A stretch of DNA of 64,000 nt from Alphaproteobacteria bacterium (GTDB lineage Bacteria; Pseudomonadota; Alphaproteobacteria; DSM-16000; Inquilinaceae): positions 1 through 64,000 of the forward strand of contig JANQSN010000017.1 of assembly GCA_028284045.1 (NCBI GenBank), read 5' to 3'. Position 1 is the first letter of the stretch, and the number at the start of each line of letters is the position of its first letter. Below the pieces are notes generated by a model. That model worked only from the letters and a program-made list of their open reading frames with translations, ran no database searches and was not told the DNA's origin. A program made the translations under genes and the position numbers. This document shows positions 14,758 through 40,278 of this stretch, in pieces.

Positions 14758-14842
14758 GTAATCGCGAATACAATGTATTTTTCTTCCGTTCGTGCGGCCG
14801 CTACGGATTGTGCGACTGCGAACCGAACGGAGACTCCGCCTC

Positions 14843-16408
14843 ATGTCGGTCTATCTGATGCCGCTGATCCCGCCGGCCGTGCTGTTGTTGACGGCGTTGC
14901 TGGCGCTGACCGGCCCGGGCCGCCGGCCGGCCGGGCTGGCCAGACTGACCGAAGGCGCGGCGCTGGTCGCGCTGGGCGCCGCGGTCGCCGCGGCGGTCGT
15001 TCTGGCGTCGCAGGGTGCGGGCTCCGCCCGGATGTTCGGCGCGGACGGCTTCGGTCCGGCGACCCGGCTCGATGCGGTCAGCGCCACCATGCTGGTCCTC
15101 GTCGCCTTCGTCGGCTGGGTCGTCGTCCGCTATTCGGCGTCCTACCTCGACGGTGAGGCGCGCGAAGGCGCCTTCCTCGGGTGGCTGGCGGCAACGCTGG
15201 GATCCGTCCTGCTGCTCGTCCAATCGGGCGACCTGGTGCAGCTCGTCGTCGCCTGGATCGCCACCAGCTTGTGCCTGCATCGGCTGCTGCTGTTCTACCG
15301 CGACCGCGTGCCGGCGATCCGCGCGGCCCGCAAGAAGCTTGTGGTCGCGCGGATCGGCGATGCGGCGCTGATCGGCGCGGCGGTGTTGCTGGCCGTCGGC
15401 TACGGCACGACCGACATCGCCAGCATCCTGGCAGCCGCGCGCGCCGGCACCGCACCCGCGGAGGCGGCCTGGGCGGCGGGTCTGATCGCGCTGGCGGCCC
15501 TGCTGAAATCGGCGCAGTTCCCGACCCATGGTTGGCTGACGGAGGTGATGGAGACGCCGACCCCGGTCTCCGCCCTCTTGCATGCGGGCGTGATCAATGC
15601 GGGCGGCTTCCTGTTGATCCGCTTTGCCGACGTCATGCTGCTGTCGCCGGGCGTGCTCGCGGTGCTGGTGATGGTCGGCGGCACCACGGCGCTGATCGGC
15701 GGCCTGGCGATGCTGTCCCAGTCCGGCGTCAAGAACTCGCTCGCCTGGTCGACCATCGCGCAGATGGGATTCATGATCATGCAATGCGGGCTGGCGCTGT
15801 TCCCGCTGGCCTTGCTGCACATCGTCGCGCACTCGCTCTACAAGGCCCACGCCTTCCTCAACTACGGCACCGCGGTGGACTATGTGGCGGCGATCCGCCG
15901 ACCGGGACCGATCGCGATCCCCAGCGGCGGGGCGGTCGTACGCGCCTTCGCGCTGGCGCTGTTGATCTATGCGGCGATCGCCTACGCCTTCGCCCTCGGC
16001 TTCGAGGCCAAGTCGCCGCAGGCGATCTCGCTGGGCGCCATCCTGATCTTCGGCGTCGCCTGTCTGCTGGCGCAGGGCCTGGCCGATGCCGCGCCGCGCG
16101 TGCTGACCCGGCGGACGCTGACCTATGCGGTGGCGACGTCGGTCAGCTACTTCGCCCTCCAGACGGGTGCGGAGTGGCTGGCCGGCGGCACGCTGCCGGC
16201 GACGCCAGCGCCGGGGCCGCTGGAATGGGCGTTGCTGGCGCTGGCCGTCTTCTGCTTCGGCCTGGTCGCCGTCGCGCAGGCGCTGTTCCCGCTGTGGTCC
16301 AACCACCCGGCGGCGGCCGGCCTGCGCGTCCACCTGTCCAATGGGCTCTATGCCAACGCGGTGTTCGATCGGCTGCTGGGCGGCTGGTCGGTTCGCCGCC
16401 CGTCCTGA
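14843..16408 (+). CDS. dabB: DabB, proton-channel-like membrane subunit of the inorganic-carbon pump
   Basis: Encodes 521 residues with about 13 membrane segments, homologous to NuoL/MrpA antiporter-type subunits ('proton-conducting membrane transporter'). Conserved features include 'LLKSAQFPTHGWLTEVMETP' then 'TPVSALLHAG', with the channel Lys and the Pro-kinked discontinuous helix, and the 'HIVAHSLYKAHAFL' helix. DabB with cytoplasmic DabA forms a DAB complex that accumulates inorganic carbon, thought to be driven by cation flow. Here it is followed 27 bp later by dabA and has no other Nuo or Mrp subunits nearby, which excludes complex I or Mrp. The ATG at 14843 has an upstream 'ggaga' and fits the family N-terminus; the frame is open to 14792. 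Confidence 0.92.
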   Translation: MSVYLMPLIPPAVLLLTALLALTGPGRRPAGLARLTEGAALVALGAAVAAAVVLASQGAGSARMFGADGFGPATRLDAVSATMLVLVAFVGWVVVRYSASYLDGEAREGAFLGWLAATLGSVLLLVQSGDLVQLVVAWIATSLCLHRLLLFYRDRVPAIRAARKKLVVARIGDAALIGAAVLLAVGYGTTDIASILAAARAGTAPAEAAWAAGLIALAALLKSAQFPTHGWLTEVMETPTPVSALLHAGVINAGGFLLIRFADVMLLSPGVLAVLVMVGGTTALIGGLAMLSQSGVKNSLAWSTIAQMGFMIMQCGLALFPLALLHIVAHSLYKAHAFLNYGTAVDYVAAIRRPGPIAIPSGGAVVRAFALALLIYAAIAYAFALGFEAKSPQAISLGAILIFGVACLLAQGLADAAPRVLTRRTLTYAVATSVSYFALQTGAEWLAGGTLPATPAPGPLEWALLALAVFCFGLVAVAQALFPLWSNHPAAAGLRVHLSNGLYANAVFDRLLGGWSVRRPS

Positions 16409-16435
16409 CCCGCGTCGCGAGAGGAGATCGATATC

Positions 16436-18892
16436 ATGTCGACGAAACCGGAGATCGAGCCCCTCGGCGTGTCCACCCGCGGCGGGTCCCCCCTCGACGT
16501 GACCACGATCGACCGCGCGGCGGATGCCGCGGCCCGGCAGATCCCGCCGGTCTGGCCCATCGCCTCCTACGTCGCGGTCAATCCCTTCCTCGGCCAGACG
16601 ACACAGTCGCTGGCCGAAGTGGGCGCGCGCCTGGGCCGCGTCGGCGCCATTCCGGTGTGCATGCCGCGCGCCTGGTATCGGGAGCGGATCGGCAACGGGA
16701 CGATCACGCAAGCGGACTTGGCCGCCGCACTCGAAGCGTCACCCCACGCCGGCAAGCCCGGCGACGTCGCCGCGCTGACCGCGGCGGCAGCGGAGGCGGC
16801 ACCGGCGCAGCCCACCTTGCCGACGGTGGCGGACCTCGCGGCCGCGGCGAGCGGAACGGATTGGCCGGGCCTGATCGCCGACCGCTTCGGCGCCTGGGCG
16901 GGCGGCTACTTCGATCGCGGCCAAGCACTCTGGGCGGCCCCGCGTGGCCGCAACACCTGGTCGGCCTTTCGCGCCTATGCGACACACGACCTGACGCCGG
17001 AGATCATGGGGCTCGACGGGTTCGCCGCCTTCGTGGCGGAGGCGCCGGAGAGCGCGGCGGCGGCGATCACGCGCGCTGCGAACCGGCTGGGCCTCGGCGA
17101 AGCGGCACTGGACACGTACTTCCATCAACTGCTGCTGTCGCTTGGCGGTTGGGCGCAGTTCGCGCGCTACGAGCTTTGGCGTGCCGAGCTTCTCGGCGAG
17201 GCCGACGCGACGATCACCGATCTGCTGGCGATCCGGCTGCTTTGGGAAGAGGCCCTGTTCTGCCGGCACGAAGCGGCGATCCTGGACCGCTGGCAGTCGG
17301 TACGGGCCGACCACGCGACGCCGGTCGCGCCGCAGGCGGCCGGCATCGTCGACGAGGTCTTGCAGGAGGCCGCCGAGCGCGCCGCCCAGCGCGCCTTGGG
17401 CGAGGCGCTCGCGGCCCCACCCCCCGCTTGCGAGGAGGCGCGCCCTGCGCTGCAGGCCGCCTTCTGCATCGATGTGCGCTCGGAGATCTTCCGGCGGTCG
17501 CTCGAAGCGGTCGATCCGGCGATCCGCACGCTGGGCTTCGCCGGCTTCTTCGGCGTGTTCGCCAAGCATCGCCGCTTCGCCTCCGACGTCGAGGAGCTGC
17601 GCTTGCCGGTTCTCCTCAACCCCACGGTCTCCTCCTGCTCCGGCCACGCGGACGAAGCGCCGGACGACCTGGCCACGCGGTATGCCGCCCGTGCCCGGCG
17701 GGCCTGGGGTCGCTTCAAACTGGCGGCCGTGTCGTCCTTCGCGTTCGTCGAGGCGATGGGGCCGGTCTATGTCGCAAAGCTTGTCCGCGAGGCCTTGGGT
17801 CTGAGCGCGATGGCGGCACCGAACGACCCGACGCCCCGCTTCGATCCCGACCTTGATCTCGCGACGCGGATCACGGCGGCGGAGACGGTGCTGCGCGCCA
17901 TGTCGCTGACCCGCGGCTTTGCGAGGGTCGTGGTGCTCGCCGGCCATGGCGCCAACGTGGTCAACAATCCGCATGCCAGCGGGCTGCACTGCGGCGCCTG
18001 TGGCGGCTATTCGGGCGAGGTGAACGCCAGGCTTCTGGCGCTGCTGCTGAATGACCGGCCGACGCGCGCGGGATTGGCGGCGCGCGGCATCGAGGTGCCG
18101 GCGGACACGCTCTTCGTCGGCGCGCTGCATGACACCACCACCGACACGATCACCCTCTACGACCGGGATGCGGCGGCCGCGGACCATGCGAGCGACCTCG
18201 CACAGGCGCGCCGGTGGTTCGCCGCCGCCGGCAAGGCGGCGCGCGGCGAGCGGGTGGCGCGTCTGCCCCGCGCCTCGGCGGAGGACGACATTCCCTCCCG
18301 CGCCCGCGACTGGGCGGAGGTCCGTCCGGAATGGGCGCTGGCCGGCTGCAAGGCCTTCATCGCCGCGCCGCGCGCGCGCACGCTCGGACGCAGCCTGAAG
18401 GGGCGGGCCTTCCTGCACGACTACGACTGGCACCAGGACAGCGCGCATGGGTTCGGCGTGCTCGAACTGATCATGACCGCGCCGGTCGTGGTCGCGAGCT
18501 GGATCAGTCTGCAGTACTACGGCTCGACCGTCGCGCCGCAGACCTTCGGGTCGGGCAACAAGCTGCTGCACAACGTGGTGGGCGGCATCGGCGTCTTCGA
18601 GGGCAATGGCGGCCTGATGCGGGCCGGCCTGCCTTGGCAATCGGTGCATGACGGCGAAGCCTATGCCCATGAACCGCTCAGACTGTCGGTCTGCATCGAA
18701 GCGCCGCGCGAGGCGATGAACGACATCCTGGCGCGTCACGACGGCGTGCGTGCACTGTTCGACCACCGCTGGCTGCATCTCTTCGCGATGGACGACGACG
18801 GACGGCTCGCCCACCGCTATACAGGCGATCTGAACTGGGAAGCGGTAGCCATGCCGGCCGCCGCGCCGCACGCGCTGGACGCCGTCGCCTGA
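16436..18892 (+). CDS. dabA: DabA, zinc carbonic-anhydrase-like subunit of the inorganic-carbon pump (DUF2309)
   Basis: Encodes 818 residues of the DUF2309/UPF0753 family. The predicted zinc site is intact: C344 and D346 in 'FCIDVRSE', H504 in '[11 protein letters not shown]' and C519 in '[11 protein letters not shown]', with the 15-residue H-to-C spacing known from the characterised Halothiobacillus DabA (ligands C351, D353, H524, C539). Conserved 'YVAVNPF' near the N-terminus and '[10 protein letters not shown]' near the C-terminus also fit. DabA is thought to hydrate CO2 vectorially while bound to the membrane through DabB. The start ATG at 16436 is preceded by 'gagagga'. The dabB-dabA order and LysR neighbour are standard for DAB operons. 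Confidence 0.94.
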
Positions 18893-32259: not shown

Positions 32260-32772
32260 TCAGATCTTGAATCGCTGATGCGCAAGCGTCGGACGCTCTA
32301 AGTGCTCGGTCCTGAAGACCGAGCAACACAACCTCTTTGCGATCGATGTTAGCCTGCCAAATCTCTCGCCGGTCATATCCTCAAGAATATTCGACACCAT
32401 ATTGGATAGACGCAGATACTCCTTGATCTTCGCCTGGAACTGGCTGGGAAGACTGGATACGCGTTCAATCATCTCCATGGCAGAACCGTCAGGCAGCCGC
32501 TCGTAAGTCACATAGGGCGTGAAGGCCGGATCGGCGCGGAGCTTCCCGACCAACGTCTCGAACATCTGCTGACTGGTCGAGGCCGCACCGATCCGCCTGT
32601 CTGTCTCCAGATCGGCGATCAGGCTCCGCGCCGATTTGAGGATGAGGGCACGGCGCTCCCGCACCCGCAGCCAGAGCCCAAGAACCTGTGTCAGGGTCCA
32701 GAGGGCGAAGGCGACACCCGCCGTGATGGCCGCAGCCCCGACGCGCGGATCGAAGACCGTCCCCTCCGTCAT
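32260..32772 (-). CDS. Membrane-anchored protein of unknown function
   Basis: Encodes 170 residues. One membrane segment (about 12-35) is followed by a basic stretch 'RVRERRALILK' and a soluble helical domain with 'YLRLSNMVSNILEDMTGERF'. The N-terminal two-thirds has the usual G/C-rich codon choice, but the 3' third is noticeably less GC-rich, as is the 260 bp beyond the stop. This may mark foreign or decaying DNA, or a frameshift near the C-terminus. It is transcribed away from the propionyl-CoA synthase gene's 3' end, on the same strand, with 49 bp between. No family is recognised. Confidence 0.6.
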   Translation of the reverse strand: MTEGTVFDPRVGAAAITAGVAFALWTLTQVLGLWLRVRERRALILKSARSLIADLETDRRIGAASTSQQMFETLVGKLRADPAFTPYVTYERLPDGSAMEMIERVSSLPSQFQAKIKEYLRLSNMVSNILEDMTGERFGRLTSIAKRLCCSVFRTEHLERPTLAHQRFKI

Positions 32773-32821: not shown

Positions 32822-35800
32822 TCACGCCTCCGCCGCCTGCGCCCAGGCGAGCAGCAGTTCGTCGCGGGTCTTCAGGCCGGGCTCCGGCAGGGCGTGGTTG
32901 ACGACCGCCTTGCCGAAGCCGCCGGTGGCGGCGTCCAAGTGGTTTTCGTACATCGCCTGGTGCAGGGCCGGCAGGTCGTGCCAGGCGCCGAGATGGACCG
33001 GCGGCACGGTCACCGCGCCGCCCGCGATCATCCGGTTGAGGGCGGCGATCTCCGCGGCGCTGTTGAGATGCGACGAGACGATCGCCGCCGTCGGCATCAG
33101 GATGCGGCGCTGGCGCATCCACACCTGCGGCGCATAGAAGCTGTAGCGCCGGCCGCCCATATCGCCGCAATAGACCACCCGGCCGGTATGCGGGCGCACC
33201 AGCATGGTGGTGTAGGCCAGGCTGTCGGTCCGGGCGCGCTCCACCACGATGTCGGGCTGGCCGCGCGGGTTGTCGGCGCTGCGCAAGAGGCGCCCGATGG
33301 CGGCGCCCAAGGGCTTGAACGTATCCTCCGTCATCCGCCGGACGGTTTCCTTGAAGCCCGCGGTATCGCGCGCTAGGTCGGGCAGGTCCGGCATGGTCTC
33401 CGGCCAGCGGAATTGCGGCACGCGCCGGGCGATCTCCGCCAGGGACACGACCCCGACCACCGCATCGCCGTAGCCGAGCGAGGCGACGAAGTCCCGCTGG
33501 TCGTCCCCGTCGGTCACCACGACGATCCGCCCGCCGGCCCGGCGCGCGGCCTCAATCGCCGCCAACGCCGTCTCGTCGCGCACCCGGCCGGCCACGCCGT
33601 AGAAGACCACGACCGCCTCGCCGGGCCGCAGGCCGGCACGGGCCAGCATCGCCGCCGGCTCCGCGCCGCCGGGCTTGCCGAGGAAGGTCATATGGTGGCC
33701 GGTGCTGGCCCCGAAGAAGGTGATGACCCCGCCCTCGCCCAAGGCCTGGAAGCTGCGGGGAAACGCGGTTTCGCCGGCATGGCTGAGCGCGAAGTCGACC
33801 AGCCGGCCGCCATGGGCCTCGGCCACGGCGTCGAGCCAGGGCCGCCCCGCCGCCGCCCAGGCGTCCCACGCCGCGGGATCGGCCGGCACGCGGGTAAACA
33901 GCCCGGCCAGCGCGTCCGCCCGGCGATCGACCGCGGCCGCACCCGTGGCCTCCACCGCAGCGCGCCGGGCGGGGCCGGAGACCAGGCCGACCACCCGCGC
34001 GCCGGCCGCCCGACCGATGGCCACCGCCCATTGCCCGGTGCCCGACGCGGCCCCCTCCACCAGCAGGCCGCTGCCCGCCGTAACCCCGAGCGCGCGGAAC
34101 AGCGCACGATAGGCGGTGCCGCCGGCCAGCATGTAGGACCCCGCCGCTTCCAGGCTGAGATCGCCGGGCGGGGCGAACAGTTGCGGGCCCTGCGCCGTCA
34201 TGAACTGCCGGTGCGAGCCGTCCGGCGTCTGATAGCCCTGGATGTGGAAGCGGGTCGCCATCGGGTCGGCGCCGGCCTCCGGGTCCATCAGGTCGGACAC
34301 ACCGGCATAGATCGCCACCACGTCGCCAACCGCCAGCCGGCCTTCCGCCTGCAGCGCCTCGCCGAGGCGCACGATCAGCCCGACGCCGCCGGAGCCGCTG
34401 ACATGCACGTCTTCGTCATGGTCGTCGAGCACGCTGATCGGCAGGCCGGTAACCGCCCAAACGTCGTTGTAATTGACCTCCGACGCCAGGACATAGACCA
34501 GCGCCTCCGTCGGCCCCGGGTCCGGCACCGGGACCAGCGCCTCGACCTCCGCCTCCGCCGGGTCGCCGTGCCGGGCCGCCCCGGTCGCCGGATCCCGCAC
34601 GACCGCATAGGCGCATTGCCAGTCCGGCAGCGGCGTCACCCCGGGCACGAAGGGGCTGCCGATGGGCAGCAGGCGGCCGGCCTCGACCAACCGCGCGCAC
34701 GTCGCCGGGTCGGCGGCGGGGCGCGGCCGCGCCGGCAGGGGCGGCGACTGCTTGTCGAGGAAGAGGCGGATGCCGCGCCGTCCCCCGGCCTCGCCATCGA
34801 CGACGAAGCGGGCGAACACCCGCGACTCCGCCGCCAGCCCGGCCAAGTACCCATCGCGGAACCCCTGGCGCACCAAGTCGACGATGGCGCGGGCGACCGG
34901 GCCACGACCGACGCTGTCGGACTGCGCGAGGCAGAGCCGGACATAGGCATCGCCAAGCGCCCGATCGACCAGCGCATCGGCCCCGTCCGCCACCGCCTGC
35001 CATCGCGTGATCGCGGCGTGGCGCGCCTGCATTGCCTCAACCGCCGGGCCGGTGCCGTGGGCGACGGCCTCGCGCGCCAGCGCGCGCGCCTGCGACAAGG
35101 CATCGGCGGGGGCCGTCACCATCCGGTCGACCAGGCCCAGCCAGACCGCGTCGCCGACCTCGACCGCGCGGCCCGACAGCAGCAGCGCCAGCGCTGAGAC
35201 CAGGGCGGCGGCCGGGTCGCCGCCCGCCGCCGCCGCCCGCTCCATCAACAGCCGCGGCCAGCGCTGGGTGCCGCCGAAGCCCGGCGGCAGGAACAGGTTG
35301 ATCTCTGGCTGGCCGATCCGCGTGCGCTCGGTGGCCAGGCGCAGATGGCAGGCCGCCGCCAGCTCCGCCCCGCCGCCCAGCGCCACGCCGTCCAGCACCG
35401 CGATCACCGGTTTGGCCGCCGCCTCCAGTCGGCGGAACAGGCCATGCGCCTTGGCGGCGACGGCCTGGGCCTCGGCCTCGTCATGCACCTCCTCCACAAG
35501 CTGGCGGATATCCGCCCCGGCGACGAAGGTGCCGGCTCCGGCGCCGGCCAGGACGATCGCCCCGATATCGGCGCGCCGCAGCAGGTGGTCGGCCAGCGTC
35601 GACAGCTCGTCGAGCACGCGTTCCGACAGCGCGTTGACCGGGGGGTTGGCGATGGTGACGGTGGCGATCAGGCGGTCGCCCACCGCGCCCGCCGGGTCGT
35701 ATTCCACGCGCAGGCTGCGCGTCGTCTCCAGCCGGTCGCGTACCGCCAGGCGCGCCTGGCGCCGGCGCCAGTCGCCGACGCGCCCCTCGATCTCGCCCAG

Positions 35801-38272
35801 CACCTCCGGATTGCGCAGCGTGGTGGTGTCGCCCAGCGCCGCACCCGCCATCATCTGCGCCAGCAGCCGGCGCATGTATTTGCCCGACCGCGTCTCCGGG
35901 AAATCCGGCACGGCGATGAAGTCCGAGGGTACGGCGACCGCGCCCTTGTCCTGGCGCACCAACTCCGCCAGCCGGCGCTGGTCGTCGGCGGACAGCGCGC
36001 GCCCGGCGGCGGTGCGGATGAAGGCGACCGGCGTCAGCCCCTTCTCGCCATGCGGCGCGCCGACGACGACGCAGTTGCCGACGGGGCTGTCCGGGTTGAT
36101 CTGCCGGTCGCGCAGGATGGCGCCTTCGATCTCCTCGGTGCCCATGCGGTGGCCGGAGACATTGATCACGTCGTCGGAGCGGCCGTGCAGCGTGAAGCTG
36201 CCGTCGCCGTGCCGCACGGCGAAGTCGCCCTGCAGATAGGCCGGCACCGGCTGGCCGTCGGCGTCGCGGAAGCGGCCGTAATAGGTCGCCCGGAAGCGCG
36301 CGCGGTCGCCGACCCAGCCGGGCGCCATCGCCCGGTCGCCGTCGCCCCACAGGGTAAAGGCGAGATAGGGATAGGGCCGGGTGATGACGATCTCGCCGCG
36401 CTCCCCATCCTCTGCCCGGCGATAGGCGACGCGACCGTCGGCGTCGGTGTCGCCCGCCGGCACCCAGACGTCGCCGGCAACCCAGGGCAGCGCCCAGGTA
36501 TGGGCGTCGGCGCGCAGCGGCTGGTCGGGATTGCCGTAAGGGTGCGTCCAGACGATGCCGCCATGCTCGGTCGCCCAGTAGCTGTTGATGTATTGCCGGG
36601 TCATGAGCTGCATGGCGAAGCGCTGCACGGCCGGGCTGGTCGGCTCCGCACAGAAGGTGGCGACGCGCAAGGACGAGCGGTCGTAGGCCTCGACGTCGGC
36701 CCGGTTCTCCGGGTCGCTCATCACCGTCTTCAGGAAGGTCACGCCGGCCTTGAAGATGGTCACGCCGTAGCGCTCGATGATCGAGGCGAAGCGGCCGGCA
36801 TTGGGGAAGACCGGCGAGCCCTCGGTGAGGATGCCGGTGATGCGGCGGGTGAGGCTGGCGGTGATCAGGTAGCTCTGCCCGGTGATCCAGCCGGGATCGG
36901 CGACGACGTAGATCACGTCCTCGCCGTCCACCGCGTCGAAGCTGACGGTCATGGTGTGGGCGATGCCGGCGACATAGCCGCCATGGACATGCACCACACC
37001 CTTCGGCTTACCGGTGGAGCCGGAGGTGTAGATGATGAACAGCGGCGTATTGGCGTCGAGCGGCCGGCACGGCATGGCCCGGCCGAGGCGGAGCGCCAGG
37101 TCGCGGTCCGCCAGCGCGTCGAGCCCGGCGCGGCCGGCGACGCCGGCTTCGGCCGCCACCCGGTCGACCGCCCGGGCCAGCAGGTCGTGTGCCCACAGAT
37201 CGCGCTCGGGCACCCAAGCCAGATCGGCGATCCGGGCGTGGTTGACGACGATGACGTGGCGCACCCGGCGCGGCGCGCGGGCCAGCGCCTCCGCCAGGTC
37301 GGCGCGCAGGTCGGCCAACGTCGATGCCGGCAGGTCGGCGATCTCGCCCAGCGCCCGACCCAGCGCCTGCATGATGTCGGCCGGCGTCGCCGTGATCTCG
37401 CCGGCCAGCGCCCGGTCCAGCGCCGCCAGGCACACCGCAGCGTGGTTCGCCACGCGCGCGGCCAGCACGACGGCGGCGACGTCCCGGGCGGCCGCGACCG
37501 CGACGAAACGGTCGAGCGCGGGGTCCGTATAGACCTCCTTGAACGGCACGGTCTCCGCGTTGCGCGAGGCGCCGTCGGCGGTGATCACCACGCAGGCACC
37601 GGCATTCTCGATGCGGTCGGCCAGCGTCTTGTCGGAGAAGCCGCCGAACACGGGCGTGTAGATGATGCCGAGGCGCTTGGCCGCCTCCGTCCAGATGATC
37701 TGTTCGGGGATGTTGGGCAGGTTCAGCGCGATGCGGTCGCCGGGGCCGAGCCCGAGATCCGCCAGTGCGCGCGCCGCCGCGACGCTGTCGATCAGCAGGT
37801 CGCGCCGGCTGATCCGGCGGGTATGCACCGGGCCGCCGCGGCCCTGGTTGGCCGACGGGTCCCAGCGGTCGCCTTCGTAGTGATAGGCGGCCTCCGCGCC
37901 GTGGCCGGCCAGCACATGGCGGTCGACCTCGTTGAACGCGGCGTTTGTCAGGCCGCCGGCGAACCAGCGATAGACCGGTGCGGCCCGGTCGTCGAAGGCG
38001 GTGTGCCAGGGCGCCCAGTCGTCCAGCGCGACGTCGCGGCCGTCGGCGAGCGCAACACCGGTCCAGCGCCCGTCGGCCCCTTGGCTCAGCCAGGCGCCGA
38101 GGTCGGGGTGATACCAGTGCAGCAGACGCGCCGCGATGGCGCCGTGGAAGGCGCCGGGATCGGCCGCCGCGGCCTCCGCCATCGCCTGCCAGTCGGCGGC
38201 GCTGCGGATCGGGTTGGCGCGGATAACGGAAGGCAGCGGGGCGATATCGATCGCCGGGTCGAGGTCGTCCAT
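32822..38272 (-). CDS. pcs: Propionyl-CoA synthase (trifunctional acyl-CoA ligase / hydratase / reductase)
   Basis: Encodes 1,816 residues, matching the roughly 1,820-residue propionyl-CoA synthase of Chloroflexus and Erythrobacter. Domain order: an AMP-forming CoA ligase (about 1-860) with 'YTSGSTGKPKGVV' near residue 417 and catalytic K798 in 'SGKYMRR'; an enoyl-CoA hydratase (about 860-1130) with 'GVALGGGAELAAACHLR' near 960 and 'QPEINLFLPPGFGG'; and an MDR-type acrylyl-CoA reductase (about 1230-1816) with 'NYNDVWAVTGLP', 'VSGSGGVGLIVRLG' and a Rossmann motif 'GAASGTGQWAVAIGRAAG' near 1400. It converts 3-hydroxypropionate to propionyl-CoA via 3-hydroxypropionyl-CoA and acrylyl-CoA, sequestering acrylyl-CoA inside one protein. 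The ligase N-terminal region carries a large insertion, as in known family members. It is monocistronic as far as can be seen. Confidence 0.95.
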   Translation of the reverse strand: MDDLDPAIDIAPLPSVIRANPIRSAADWQAMAEAAAADPGAFHGAIAARLLHWYHPDLGAWLSQGADGRWTGVALADGRDVALDDWAPWHTAFDDRAAPVYRWFAGGLTNAAFNEVDRHVLAGHGAEAAYHYEGDRWDPSANQGRGGPVHTRRISRRDLLIDSVAAARALADLGLGPGDRIALNLPNIPEQIIWTEAAKRLGIIYTPVFGGFSDKTLADRIENAGACVVITADGASRNAETVPFKEVYTDPALDRFVAVAAARDVAAVVLAARVANHAAVCLAALDRALAGEITATPADIMQALGRALGEIADLPASTLADLRADLAEALARAPRRVRHVIVVNHARIADLAWVPERDLWAHDLLARAVDRVAAEAGVAGRAGLDALADRDLALRLGRAMPCRPLDANTPLFIIYTSGSTGKPKGVVHVHGGYVAGIAHTMTVSFDAVDGEDVIYVVADPGWITGQSYLITASLTRRITGILTEGSPVFPNAGRFASIIERYGVTIFKAGVTFLKTVMSDPENRADVEAYDRSSLRVATFCAEPTSPAVQRFAMQLMTRQYINSYWATEHGGIVWTHPYGNPDQPLRADAHTWALPWVAGDVWVPAGDTDADGRVAYRRAEDGERGEIVITRPYPYLAFTLWGDGDRAMAPGWVGDRARFRATYYGRFRDADGQPVPAYLQGDFAVRHGDGSFTLHGRSDDVINVSGHRMGTEEIEGAILRDRQINPDSPVGNCVVVGAPHGEKGLTPVAFIRTAAGRALSADDQRRLAELVRQDKGAVAVPSDFIAVPDFPETRSGKYMRRLLAQMMAGAALGDTTTLRNPEVLGEIEGRVGDWRRRQARLAVRDRLETTRSLRVEYDPAGAVGDRLIATVTIANPPVNALSERVLDELSTLADHLLRRADIGAIVLAGAGAGTFVAGADIRQLVEEVHDEAEAQAVAAKAHGLFRRLEAAAKPVIAVLDGVALGGGAELAAACHLRLATERTRIGQPEINLFLPPGFGGTQRWPRLLMERAAAAGGDPAAALVSALALLLSGRAVEVGDAVWLGLVDRMVTAPADALSQARALAREAVAHGTGPAVEAMQARHAAITRWQAVADGADALVDRALGDAYVRLCLAQSDSVGRGPVARAIVDLVRQGFRDGYLAGLAAESRVFARFVVDGEAGGRRGIRLFLDKQSPPLPARPRPAADPATCARLVEAGRLLPIGSPFVPGVTPLPDWQCAYAVVRDPATGAARHGDPAEAEVEALVPVPDPGPTEALVYVLASEVNYNDVWAVTGLPISVLDDHDEDVHVSGSGGVGLIVRLGEALQAEGRLAVGDVVAIYAGVSDLMDPEAGADPMATRFHIQGYQTPDGSHRQFMTAQGPQLFAPPGDLSLEAAGSYMLAGGTAYRALFRALGVTAGSGLLVEGAASGTGQWAVAIGRAAGARVVGLVSGPARRAAVEATGAAAVDRRADALAGLFTRVPADPAAWDAWAAAGRPWLDAVAEAHGGRLVDFALSHAGETAFPRSFQALGEGGVITFFGASTGHHMTFLGKPGGAEPAAMLARAGLRPGEAVVVFYGVAGRVRDETALAAIEAARRAGGRIVVVTDGDDQRDFVASLGYGDAVVGVVSLAEIARRVPQFRWPETMPDLPDLARDTAGFKETVRRMTEDTFKPLGAAIGRLLRSADNPRGQPDIVVERARTDSLAYTTMLVRPHTGRVVYCGDMGGRRYSFYAPQVWMRQRRILMPTAAIVSSHLNSAAEIAALNRMIAGGAVTVPPVHLGAWHDLPALHQAMYENHLDAATGGFGKAVVNHALPEPGLKTRDELLLAWAQAAEA

Positions 38273-38359: not shown

Positions 38360-38809
38360 CTATTCCGCCGACAGCCCAAGGTCTTCCGGCGCCGGCGGGT
38401 CGACCGGGCGGATCGGCGCCGCCGCCTCGCCGCACGGGTAGCGCGCCGCCAGCGTGGCGATCAGCGCCCGATGGGCCGGACCCGAGCGGTCGACGTCACG
38501 AGCGTCGACATCGGCCATGAACTGGCGGCGGACCTGCTGCGGGGTGGCATCGCCGGTCAGGCAAAAGGCTGGGTCCTCGCCCCCCGCCGCCTCGGCGGCC
38601 GCGACCGTGGCGCCGATATAGCCGAGGCACACGCCTTGCAGGAACCGCGAGGTGACCGTGTCGCATTGCTGGTAGAGGTCGTAGGCCGATTTGTCGAAGC
38701 CGTCGGCGGCGGCCTGACCCGGGAGCACCGCCCACAGAACGGCCAGACCGACGACACAGGCGACGGACCGATCGGCCCGGCGCGCCGGGGTCACAGGTCG
38801 AAGCCGCAT
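38360..38809 (-). CDS. Secreted Rap1a/Tai-like protein
   Basis: Encodes 149 residues. An Arg-rich start and hydrophobic core (about 18-35) form a signal peptide ending near GQAAA. The mature domain 'YDLYQQCDTVTSRFLQGVC' then 'LGYIGATVAA' with 'CLTGDATPQQVRRQF' fits the Rap1a/Tai family, whose named members are type VI secretion immunity proteins, although most homologues are stand-alone periplasmic proteins of unknown role. No secretion genes are near, so immunity is not implied. The ATG at 38809 is well supported by a 'ggagg' site 7 bp upstream. It precedes the propionyl-CoA synthase gene on the same strand, 87 bp away. Confidence 0.75.
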   Translation of the reverse strand: MRLRPVTPARRADRSVACVVGLAVLWAVLPGQAAADGFDKSAYDLYQQCDTVTSRFLQGVCLGYIGATVAAAEAAGGEDPAFCLTGDATPQQVRRQFMADVDARDVDRSGPAHRALIATLAARYPCGEAAAPIRPVDPPAPEDLGLSAE

Positions 38810-39060
38810 AGAAGACCTCCGGCAACCGGGAAAGAGGGCCAGAAACGGCCACCCGGAGTATGGGCGACGGACCAGCACCGCCCAAACGCTCTTTACATCA
38901 GAAAATATGAATTAAAACATAATGACTATTCGTTTGTCTTATGTGTCGCACACCCGGTATCCTCACAGGACCGTGATCGGCGCACAACGCCGGCCGGCCT
39001 GCCCGTCTTCGGATCGCTGCTACAAGAAGCAAGACGGTCCGCGCCCGAGGAGCCGCCCCG

Positions 39061-40278
39061 ATGACCGAGTCCGTCGCCATCCGCGAAGACCTGCGCCGCC
39101 GCGCCGCCGATGTGGCAGCCGCGCATCTCGCCCCCCGCGCGGCGGAGACCGACCGCAGCGAGGCCTATCCCTGGTACGCGGTAAAGGCGCTGTGCGATGC
39201 TGGACTGTTCGGCCTGACCATCCCGGCAGAATATGGCGGCCCCGGCCATTCCTTCGGCGAAGCGGTCGTGGTGATCGAGGAGGTCGCCAAGGTCTGCGGC
39301 GTATCCGCCCGCATCGTGGTCGAGGCCAATATGGGCGCGCTGTCGACCATTCTCGCCTATGGCGACGAGGCGCAGAAGCAGGCCGCCGCCGCCTCGGTGC
39401 TGGGCGGCGACAAGCCGGCGATCTGCATCACCGAGCCGGGCGCCGGCTCCGCCGCCTCGCGCATGACCACGCGGGCCGACCGGCGGGGCGACCATTTCGT
39501 GCTGAACGGGGCGAAGCACTGGATCACCGGCGGCGGCGTGTCGAAGCTGCACCTGATCTTCGCCCGCGCCTTCGACGAGGCGGGGCGCGAGCTGGGCATC
39601 GGCGGCTTCATCGCCTGGGCCGGCGACGAGGGGCTGGTGATCGGCGCGCGCGAGCCGACCATGGGCCTGCGCGGGATCCCGGAGACCGAAATCCGGTTCG
39701 AGAACCTGGTCGTGCCGGCGAGCCGCGTGCTGGCGGCGCCGGGCGGCTTCGCCCACGGTTTCGGCGATCTGATGAACGCCTACAACAGCCAGCGGGTGGG
39801 CGCGGCGACGGTGGCGCTGGGCCTGGCGCAAGGCGCGCTCGACCGGGCCGTCGCCTATGCCAATGAACGCCACCAGTTCGACCGCCCGATCGCGGAATTC
39901 CAGGGCCTGCAATGGATGCTGGCCGATGTGGCGATCCAGACCGAGGCCGCCCGCGCCCTGATCCACCGCGCCGCCGACAGCCGCGGGCCGAAGAACAGCC
40001 CCTTCCCAGACCCGGTGCTGGCCGCCAAGGCCAAGGTGTTCGCCGCGGAGATGGCGATCAAGGCGACCAACGACGCGCTGCAGGTGTTCGGGGCGAAGGG
40101 CTATTCGCGAAACTGCGATATGGAGCGGATCGCCCGCGATGCCCGCATGTTCACCATCGGTGGCGGCACCGCCCAGGTGCTGCGCACACTGGTCGCCGGT
40201 AAGCTGCTGGGTCGCCGCCTGCCGCAGACCCGCGACGGCTACCTGCCCGCCGAGCGGCCGCGCCACGCCGCGGAGTAG
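39061..40278 (+). CDS. Acyl-CoA dehydrogenase superfamily, 3-sulfinopropanoyl-CoA desulfinase-like
   Basis: Encodes 405 residues of the FAD-containing acyl-CoA dehydrogenase fold, with 'CITEPGAGSAASRM', 'GAKHWITGGGVS' and 'QVFGAKGYSRNCDMERI'. Both positions that normally carry the catalytic glutamate are changed: the C-terminal 'IYEGT' site reads 'TIGGGT', and the isovaleryl-type site reads 'YNSQRVG' with Q244. R84 is also present. Absence of the base, with a Gln at this position and an Arg at 84, is what I recall for the desulfinase Acd of Advenella mimigardefordensis, which releases sulfite from 3-sulfinopropanoyl-CoA to give propionyl-CoA. The divergent neighbourhood of propionyl-CoA synthase strengthens a propionyl-CoA link. 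An ordinary dehydrogenase cannot be excluded. Confidence 0.75.
   Translation: MTESVAIREDLRRRAADVAAAHLAPRAAETDRSEAYPWYAVKALCDAGLFGLTIPAEYGGPGHSFGEAVVVIEEVAKVCGVSARIVVEANMGALSTILAYGDEAQKQAAAASVLGGDKPAICITEPGAGSAASRMTTRADRRGDHFVLNGAKHWITGGGVSKLHLIFARAFDEAGRELGIGGFIAWAGDEGLVIGAREPTMGLRGIPETEIRFENLVVPASRVLAAPGGFAHGFGDLMNAYNSQRVGAATVALGLAQGALDRAVAYANERHQFDRPIAEFQGLQWMLADVAIQTEAARALIHRAADSRGPKNSPFPDPVLAAKAKVFAAEMAIKATNDALQVFGAKGYSRNCDMERIARDARMFTIGGGTAQVLRTLVAGKLLGRRLPQTRDGYLPAERPRHAAE

Follow-up and report, generated by a model that had tools for sequence, protein, structure and literature searches.

A probable propionyl-CoA synthase gene of the Azospirillum type in an alphaproteobacterium without bifunctional malonyl-CoA reductase

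Propionyl-CoA synthase (Pcs) is one of the enzymes listed as markers of the 3-hydroxypropionate bi-cycle, and a survey of carbon fixation names it as one of the bi-cycle enzymes that occur in Alpha- and Gammaproteobacteria (PMC9802188). A pcs-like gene in a 64,000-nucleotide stretch of alphaproteobacterial DNA (contig JANQSN010000017.1; hereafter the window) raises the question of whether such a gene marks CO2 fixation or another use of 3-hydroxypropionate. An earlier note, made from the sequence alone, had read the locus as a single-chain Pcs that likely assimilates environmental 3-hydroxypropionate instead of serving the full cycle.

The coordinates and the length of 1,816 residues given there are exact, and the strand, which was left unstated, is the minus strand: the frame is open throughout its 1,816 codons, while translation of the plus strand of the same interval is interrupted by stops. 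Because the DNA has a G+C content of 70%, at which spurious long frames are common, the length of the ORF is no evidence in itself; a meaningless plus-strand ORF of 1,239 amino acids overlaps pcs. Full-length homology to PDB entry 6eqo (PDB molecule name: acetyl-CoA synthetase), which we take to be the Pcs of Erythrobacter sp. NAP1, nevertheless shows that the frame is no accident of base composition. In a phmmer search, residues 27-1813 matched this entry with 1884 bits and 52.5% identity over the whole protein, the second-best PDB match reaching 252 bits in the ligase domain only. The gene and its domains are the following:

32822..38272, minus strand: pcs gene, predicted propionyl-CoA synthase (P0001), 1,816 amino acids; full-length match to 6eqo (1884 bits), Azospirillum-type clade (100/100)
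35783..38020, minus strand: acyl-CoA synthetase (ligase) domain, residues about 85-830; PF00501/PF13193, catalytic Lys798 in PETRSGKYMRR
34943..35680, minus strand: enoyl-CoA hydratase domain, residues about 865-1110; PF00378, crotonase glutamates Glu970 and Glu990
32837..34705, minus strand: enoyl-CoA (acrylyl-CoA) reductase domain of the crotonyl-CoA reductase type, residues about 1190-1812; PF00107

The ligase-hydratase-reductase order of Pcs within one frame is borne out by the full-length 6eqo alignment and by the succession of Pfam matches, i.e. AMP-binding (190 bits, residues 151-633) and then AMP-binding_C, ECH_1 (96 bits, 869-1089) and ADH_zinc_N (46 bits, 1411-1525). Sequence motifs were compared in an alignment of 20 Pcs, comprising the window protein, 6eqo (rebuilt from alignment output as 1,815 residues, span 28-1842), 12 relatives, three sampled alphaproteobacteria (G127, G138 and G139) and three haloarchaea. 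The ligase domain has motifs identical to those of 6eqo, with 59% identity there; Glu970 and Glu990 of the hydratase domain are invariant in 20/20 sequences; and the reductase domain carries the NADPH motif EGAASGTG and matches 6eqo with 668 bits and the CCR structure 4gi2 with 168 bits. Conservation across the 20 proteins extends to the adenylation P-loop, WATEHGG, QGD, Lys798, the AGAD oxyanion loop and the NADPH loop, meaning that the key motifs claimed for each domain stand, with the catalytic residues of all three kept. The best 25 NCBIfam matches include no model for Pcs; they are to ACS, CCR and hydratases, all below cut-off. Without such a model, annotation pipelines may label Pcs "AMP-binding protein", as is the case in haloarchaea: full-length Pcs are encoded on megaplasmids of Natribaculum, Natrinema and Natronococcus (L048, L049, L050), where the annotation reads only AMP-binding protein.

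Twelve full-length relatives, from 11 Azospirillum and 'Roseomonas genomospecies 6' (L009-L020), share 66-68% identity with the window protein, followed by G139 (64%), G127 (61%), G138 (53%) and the haloarchaea (52-53%). A maximum-likelihood tree of the 20 full-length Pcs joins Erythrobacter with G138, sets the haloarchaea apart and unites Azospirillum with the window, G127 and G139 (100/100); long branches were flagged for the last three, and the order inside this Azospirillum-type group is unsure. In ligase- and reductase-domain trees rooted on the ACS and CCR paralogues of the host genome, Pcs group together and the Azospirillum-type clade stays intact (99 and 100); none of the Pcs trees contains a Chloroflexus sequence. 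An origin from unrelated acetate-CoA ligase fusions was rejected, both domain trees placing the window protein among Pcs and apart from the ACS and CCR paralogues. With full-length homology, motifs and tree in agreement, the identification as Pcs holds, its activity being predicted: judged by sequence, the window protein is a member of the known Pcs family. Erythrobacter, cited earlier as the proteobacterial example, is imprecise in that the window Pcs falls into a different clade, and the literature searched has nothing on Azospirillum Pcs. The family was rightly called sporadic in Proteobacteria. It is present in 4/289 sampled alphaproteobacterial genomes, in 1/17 genomes of the host's own order and in 1/249 genomes of a phylum sample, the one being the window's own; this scatter fits gene transfer or frequent loss.

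What such an enzyme would serve depends on the rest of the genome (G000; 4.32 Mb, 63 contigs, 100% complete). Here, no match to the bifunctional, Chloroflexus-type malonyl-CoA reductase (Mcr) was obtained at E<=1e-60. The query, a Chloroflexus Mcr sequence, was confirmed by its match to PDB 8hjw (2697 bits), and the same search found an mcr in G138 with 1139 bits, about 100 bases after pcs, which serves as a positive control. For Mcr, the earlier remark that the window has no further bi-cycle gene is true of the entire genome. Bifunctional Mcr is likewise absent from G139, from the 12 Azospirillum-type genomes and from G127, the last only 81% complete. Some 7-15 kb from the adjacent pcs and mcr of G138 (L038/L039, L040, L041) lie bchX-like and carotenoid-like genes, identified by eye via similarity to the host's BchX; G138 is thus probably phototrophic, with its bi-cycle genes linked.

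The genome search also returned no RuBisCO large subunit in the host. In this genome without RuBisCO, the window holds an inorganic carbon uptake pair at 14792-18892, a DabB-like gene and DabA (PF10070, 852 bits), with a divergent LysR regulator. Propionyl-CoA carboxylase (PCC) is present, its beta subunit on contig C44 adjoining an alpha subunit with a PCC_BT domain, and so is methylmalonyl-CoA mutase (MCM) on C15 (NF006944, 1317 bits, cut-off 876). The bi-cycle requires both, yet their presence is not diagnostic, as they are common to propionate assimilation. Contig C50 bears the ethylmalonyl-CoA pathway set: a mutase, a MeaB-like gene (by eye), CCR, mesaconyl-CoA hydratase and an acyl-CoA dehydrogenase. 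The proteins of two tandem CCR genes on this contig (L031, 7903-9708 and 9668-11659) each end in a pair of CBS domains (PF00571, 86 and 90 bits); the literature searched contains no paper pairing CCR with CBS domains. Finally, contig C10 carries bchX, bchY, bchH, acsF, bchG and bchP, from which bacteriochlorophyll synthesis in the host is very probable; the cyclase encoded by acsF is the oxygen-dependent one.

We consider it very likely that the gene is a pcs whose role is the use or disposal of 3-hydroxypropionate and not autotrophy, with catalysis, substrate and flux direction as we infer them here. In the ligase domain, 3-hydroxypropionate would be activated with CoA and ATP to 3-hydroxypropionyl-CoA; dehydration in the hydratase domain would yield acrylyl-CoA, which the reductase domain would then reduce to propionyl-CoA with NADPH, all within one polypeptide. 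Carboxylation by PCC and rearrangement by MCM would then lead to succinyl-CoA. In a probable bacteriochlorophyll-making phototroph without RuBisCO and Chloroflexus-type Mcr, Pcs would consume 3-hydroxypropionate and support no autotrophy. Assimilation, preferred over the full CO2-fixing cycle from the outset, fits a genome that has PCC and MCM but neither bifunctional Mcr nor RuBisCO. The host most probably lives as a photoheterotroph and takes 3-hydroxypropionate to succinyl-CoA by way of propionyl-CoA, whether for assimilation or for disposal.

Gene neighbourhoods were inspected for a substrate. Compared with Pcs loci elsewhere, the host locus has no conserved operon partner and shares nothing with Azospirillum beyond pcs itself; since the neighbours differ in this way, the context names no substrate. 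The divergent neighbour is the following:

39061..40278, plus strand: acyl-CoA dehydrogenase family gene, 3-sulfinopropionyl-CoA desulfinase-like; NF042439 617.9 bits (cut-off 600), 5af7 452 bits

As predicted from its family, its product would also be propionyl-CoA, and a joint function with pcs is a possibility, albeit one whose linkage is not conserved at other Pcs loci. Two small minus-strand frames flank pcs and are possibly co-transcribed with it, one just upstream with a Rap1a domain (38360-38878; PF18602) and one just downstream matching no family (32260-32772). At most Azospirillum loci, pcs is followed by an SsuABC/TauABC-type (sulfonate/taurine-type) ABC transporter, a candidate importer. 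In the haloarchaeon Natribaculum luteum, pcs directly follows genes for an acyl-CoA carboxylase beta subunit and methylmalonyl-CoA mutase, and in Natrinema zhouii, genes for MeaB, a mutase and its B12-binding partner subunit lie within about 10 kb of pcs. Neither the transporter nor these carboxylase and mutase neighbours accompany pcs in the window. The Natribaculum order lends independent support to a route from Pcs through PCC to MCM.

The same enzyme might mainly dispose of 3-hydroxypropionate, malonate semialdehyde products or acrylate formed inside the cell, as in the degradation of beta-alanine or pyrimidines, instead of supporting growth on environmental 3-hydroxypropionate. We regard this as a serious possibility, though on balance an improbable one: no pcs-linked uptake transporter lies in the window, unlike the SsuABC/TauABC-type system of Azospirillum, but neither are beta-alanine or pyrimidine genes linked to pcs. 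A search of the host genome for DMSP lyases of the cupin type found none either; as far as this type goes, the result agrees with an internal origin and leaves DMSP, which had been proposed as the external source, without support.

Two further explanations were weighed. A substrate shift, i.e. a Pcs-like fusion acting on another 3-substituted propionate, would sit well with the desulfinase-like neighbour, which exceeds the NF042439 cut-off and matches 5af7, both products then being propionyl-CoA. Yet full length and catalytic motifs are those of Pcs, and the neighbour is not kept beside pcs elsewhere, making such a shift very unlikely. Least likely of all is an autotrophic bi-cycle in which the missing step falls to a malonyl-CoA reductase of divergent or archaeal type. 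It could draw on the probable phototrophy of a host without RuBisCO and on the DabA/DabB-type pair in the window; however, a 100%-complete genome gave no bifunctional Mcr in a search that recovered the G138 control, the window Pcs lies outside the Mcr-linked clade, and acetate assimilation is already accounted for by the ethylmalonyl-CoA cluster.

In the reductase domain, two positions are of note:

34229..34231, minus strand: Gln1348, aligned with the CCR glutamate of GYE (alignment of 20 Pcs and alignment to 4gi2)
34463..34465, minus strand: Asp1270, at the position of the CCR CO2-pocket Asn of NYNN (alignments)

The Asn of NYNN and the Glu of GYE are presumably CO2-pocket residues of CCR, and work on the Kitasatospora CCR reportedly assigned the GYE glutamate to this pocket. 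The CCR of the host genome has both NYNN and GYE, and 4gi2 retains GYE; the window Pcs, with Asp1270 and Gln1348, has neither of the two CCR-type residues. Asp occupies the Asn position in all aligned Pcs (NYND or NFND versus NYNN). The glutamate, by comparison, is Gln in 15/15 Azospirillum-type Pcs of the alignment and Glu in Erythrobacter-type and haloarchaeal ones. We tentatively suggest, at a little under even confidence, that Azospirillum and its relatives hold a distinct, assimilation-only Pcs branch uncoupled from Mcr, in which the Glu-to-Gln change removes the residual pocket glutamate. Latent carboxylation would then be predicted to be lower than in the Erythrobacter enzyme. The latter carboxylates weakly, an activity that engineering has strengthened, and the Azospirillum-type clade offers natural CO2-pocket variants to the field engineering Pcs into a carboxylase (PMC10176493).

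Among known systems, the window Pcs resembles that of Erythrobacter sp. NAP1 in length, domain order, aligned catalytic motifs and 52.5% identity, but differs in clade and in having Gln1348 instead of Glu; the nearest relative found for the Erythrobacter enzyme, in G138, has a linked mcr, whereas the window genome has none. With the Pcs-like proteins of Azospirillum (L009-L020), it shares 66-68% identity, the clade, the GYQ motif and the lack of Mcr in the 12 genomes, though not the ABC transporter that mostly follows their pcs. Rhodobacter sphaeroides, a photoheterotroph with reductive 3-hydroxypropionate assimilation, reaches propionyl-CoA with separate enzymes, including the acrylyl-CoA reductase AcuI, and no fusion; the chemistry and the phototrophic setting are alike, while the window genome has a single fusion. 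Such reductive assimilation has been proposed for a photoheterotroph (PMC6572756). The same paper, citing Alber and Fuchs 2002, describes the same three-step reaction for Pcs of the Chloroflexus aurantiacus bi-cycle; the likeness drawn here is to the reaction as described, and the window genome differs in lacking Mcr. The assimilation idea is not new, as the carbon-fixation survey proposed organic-acid assimilation for incomplete actinobacterial bi-cycle sets (PMC9802188). Since Pcs occurs without bifunctional Mcr in 15 Azospirillum-type genomes, and on haloarchaeal plasmids, a pcs gene alone is no sign of CO2 fixation. Beyond known Pcs, the clade structure, the absence of Mcr and the haloarchaeal relatives add a modest degree of interest.
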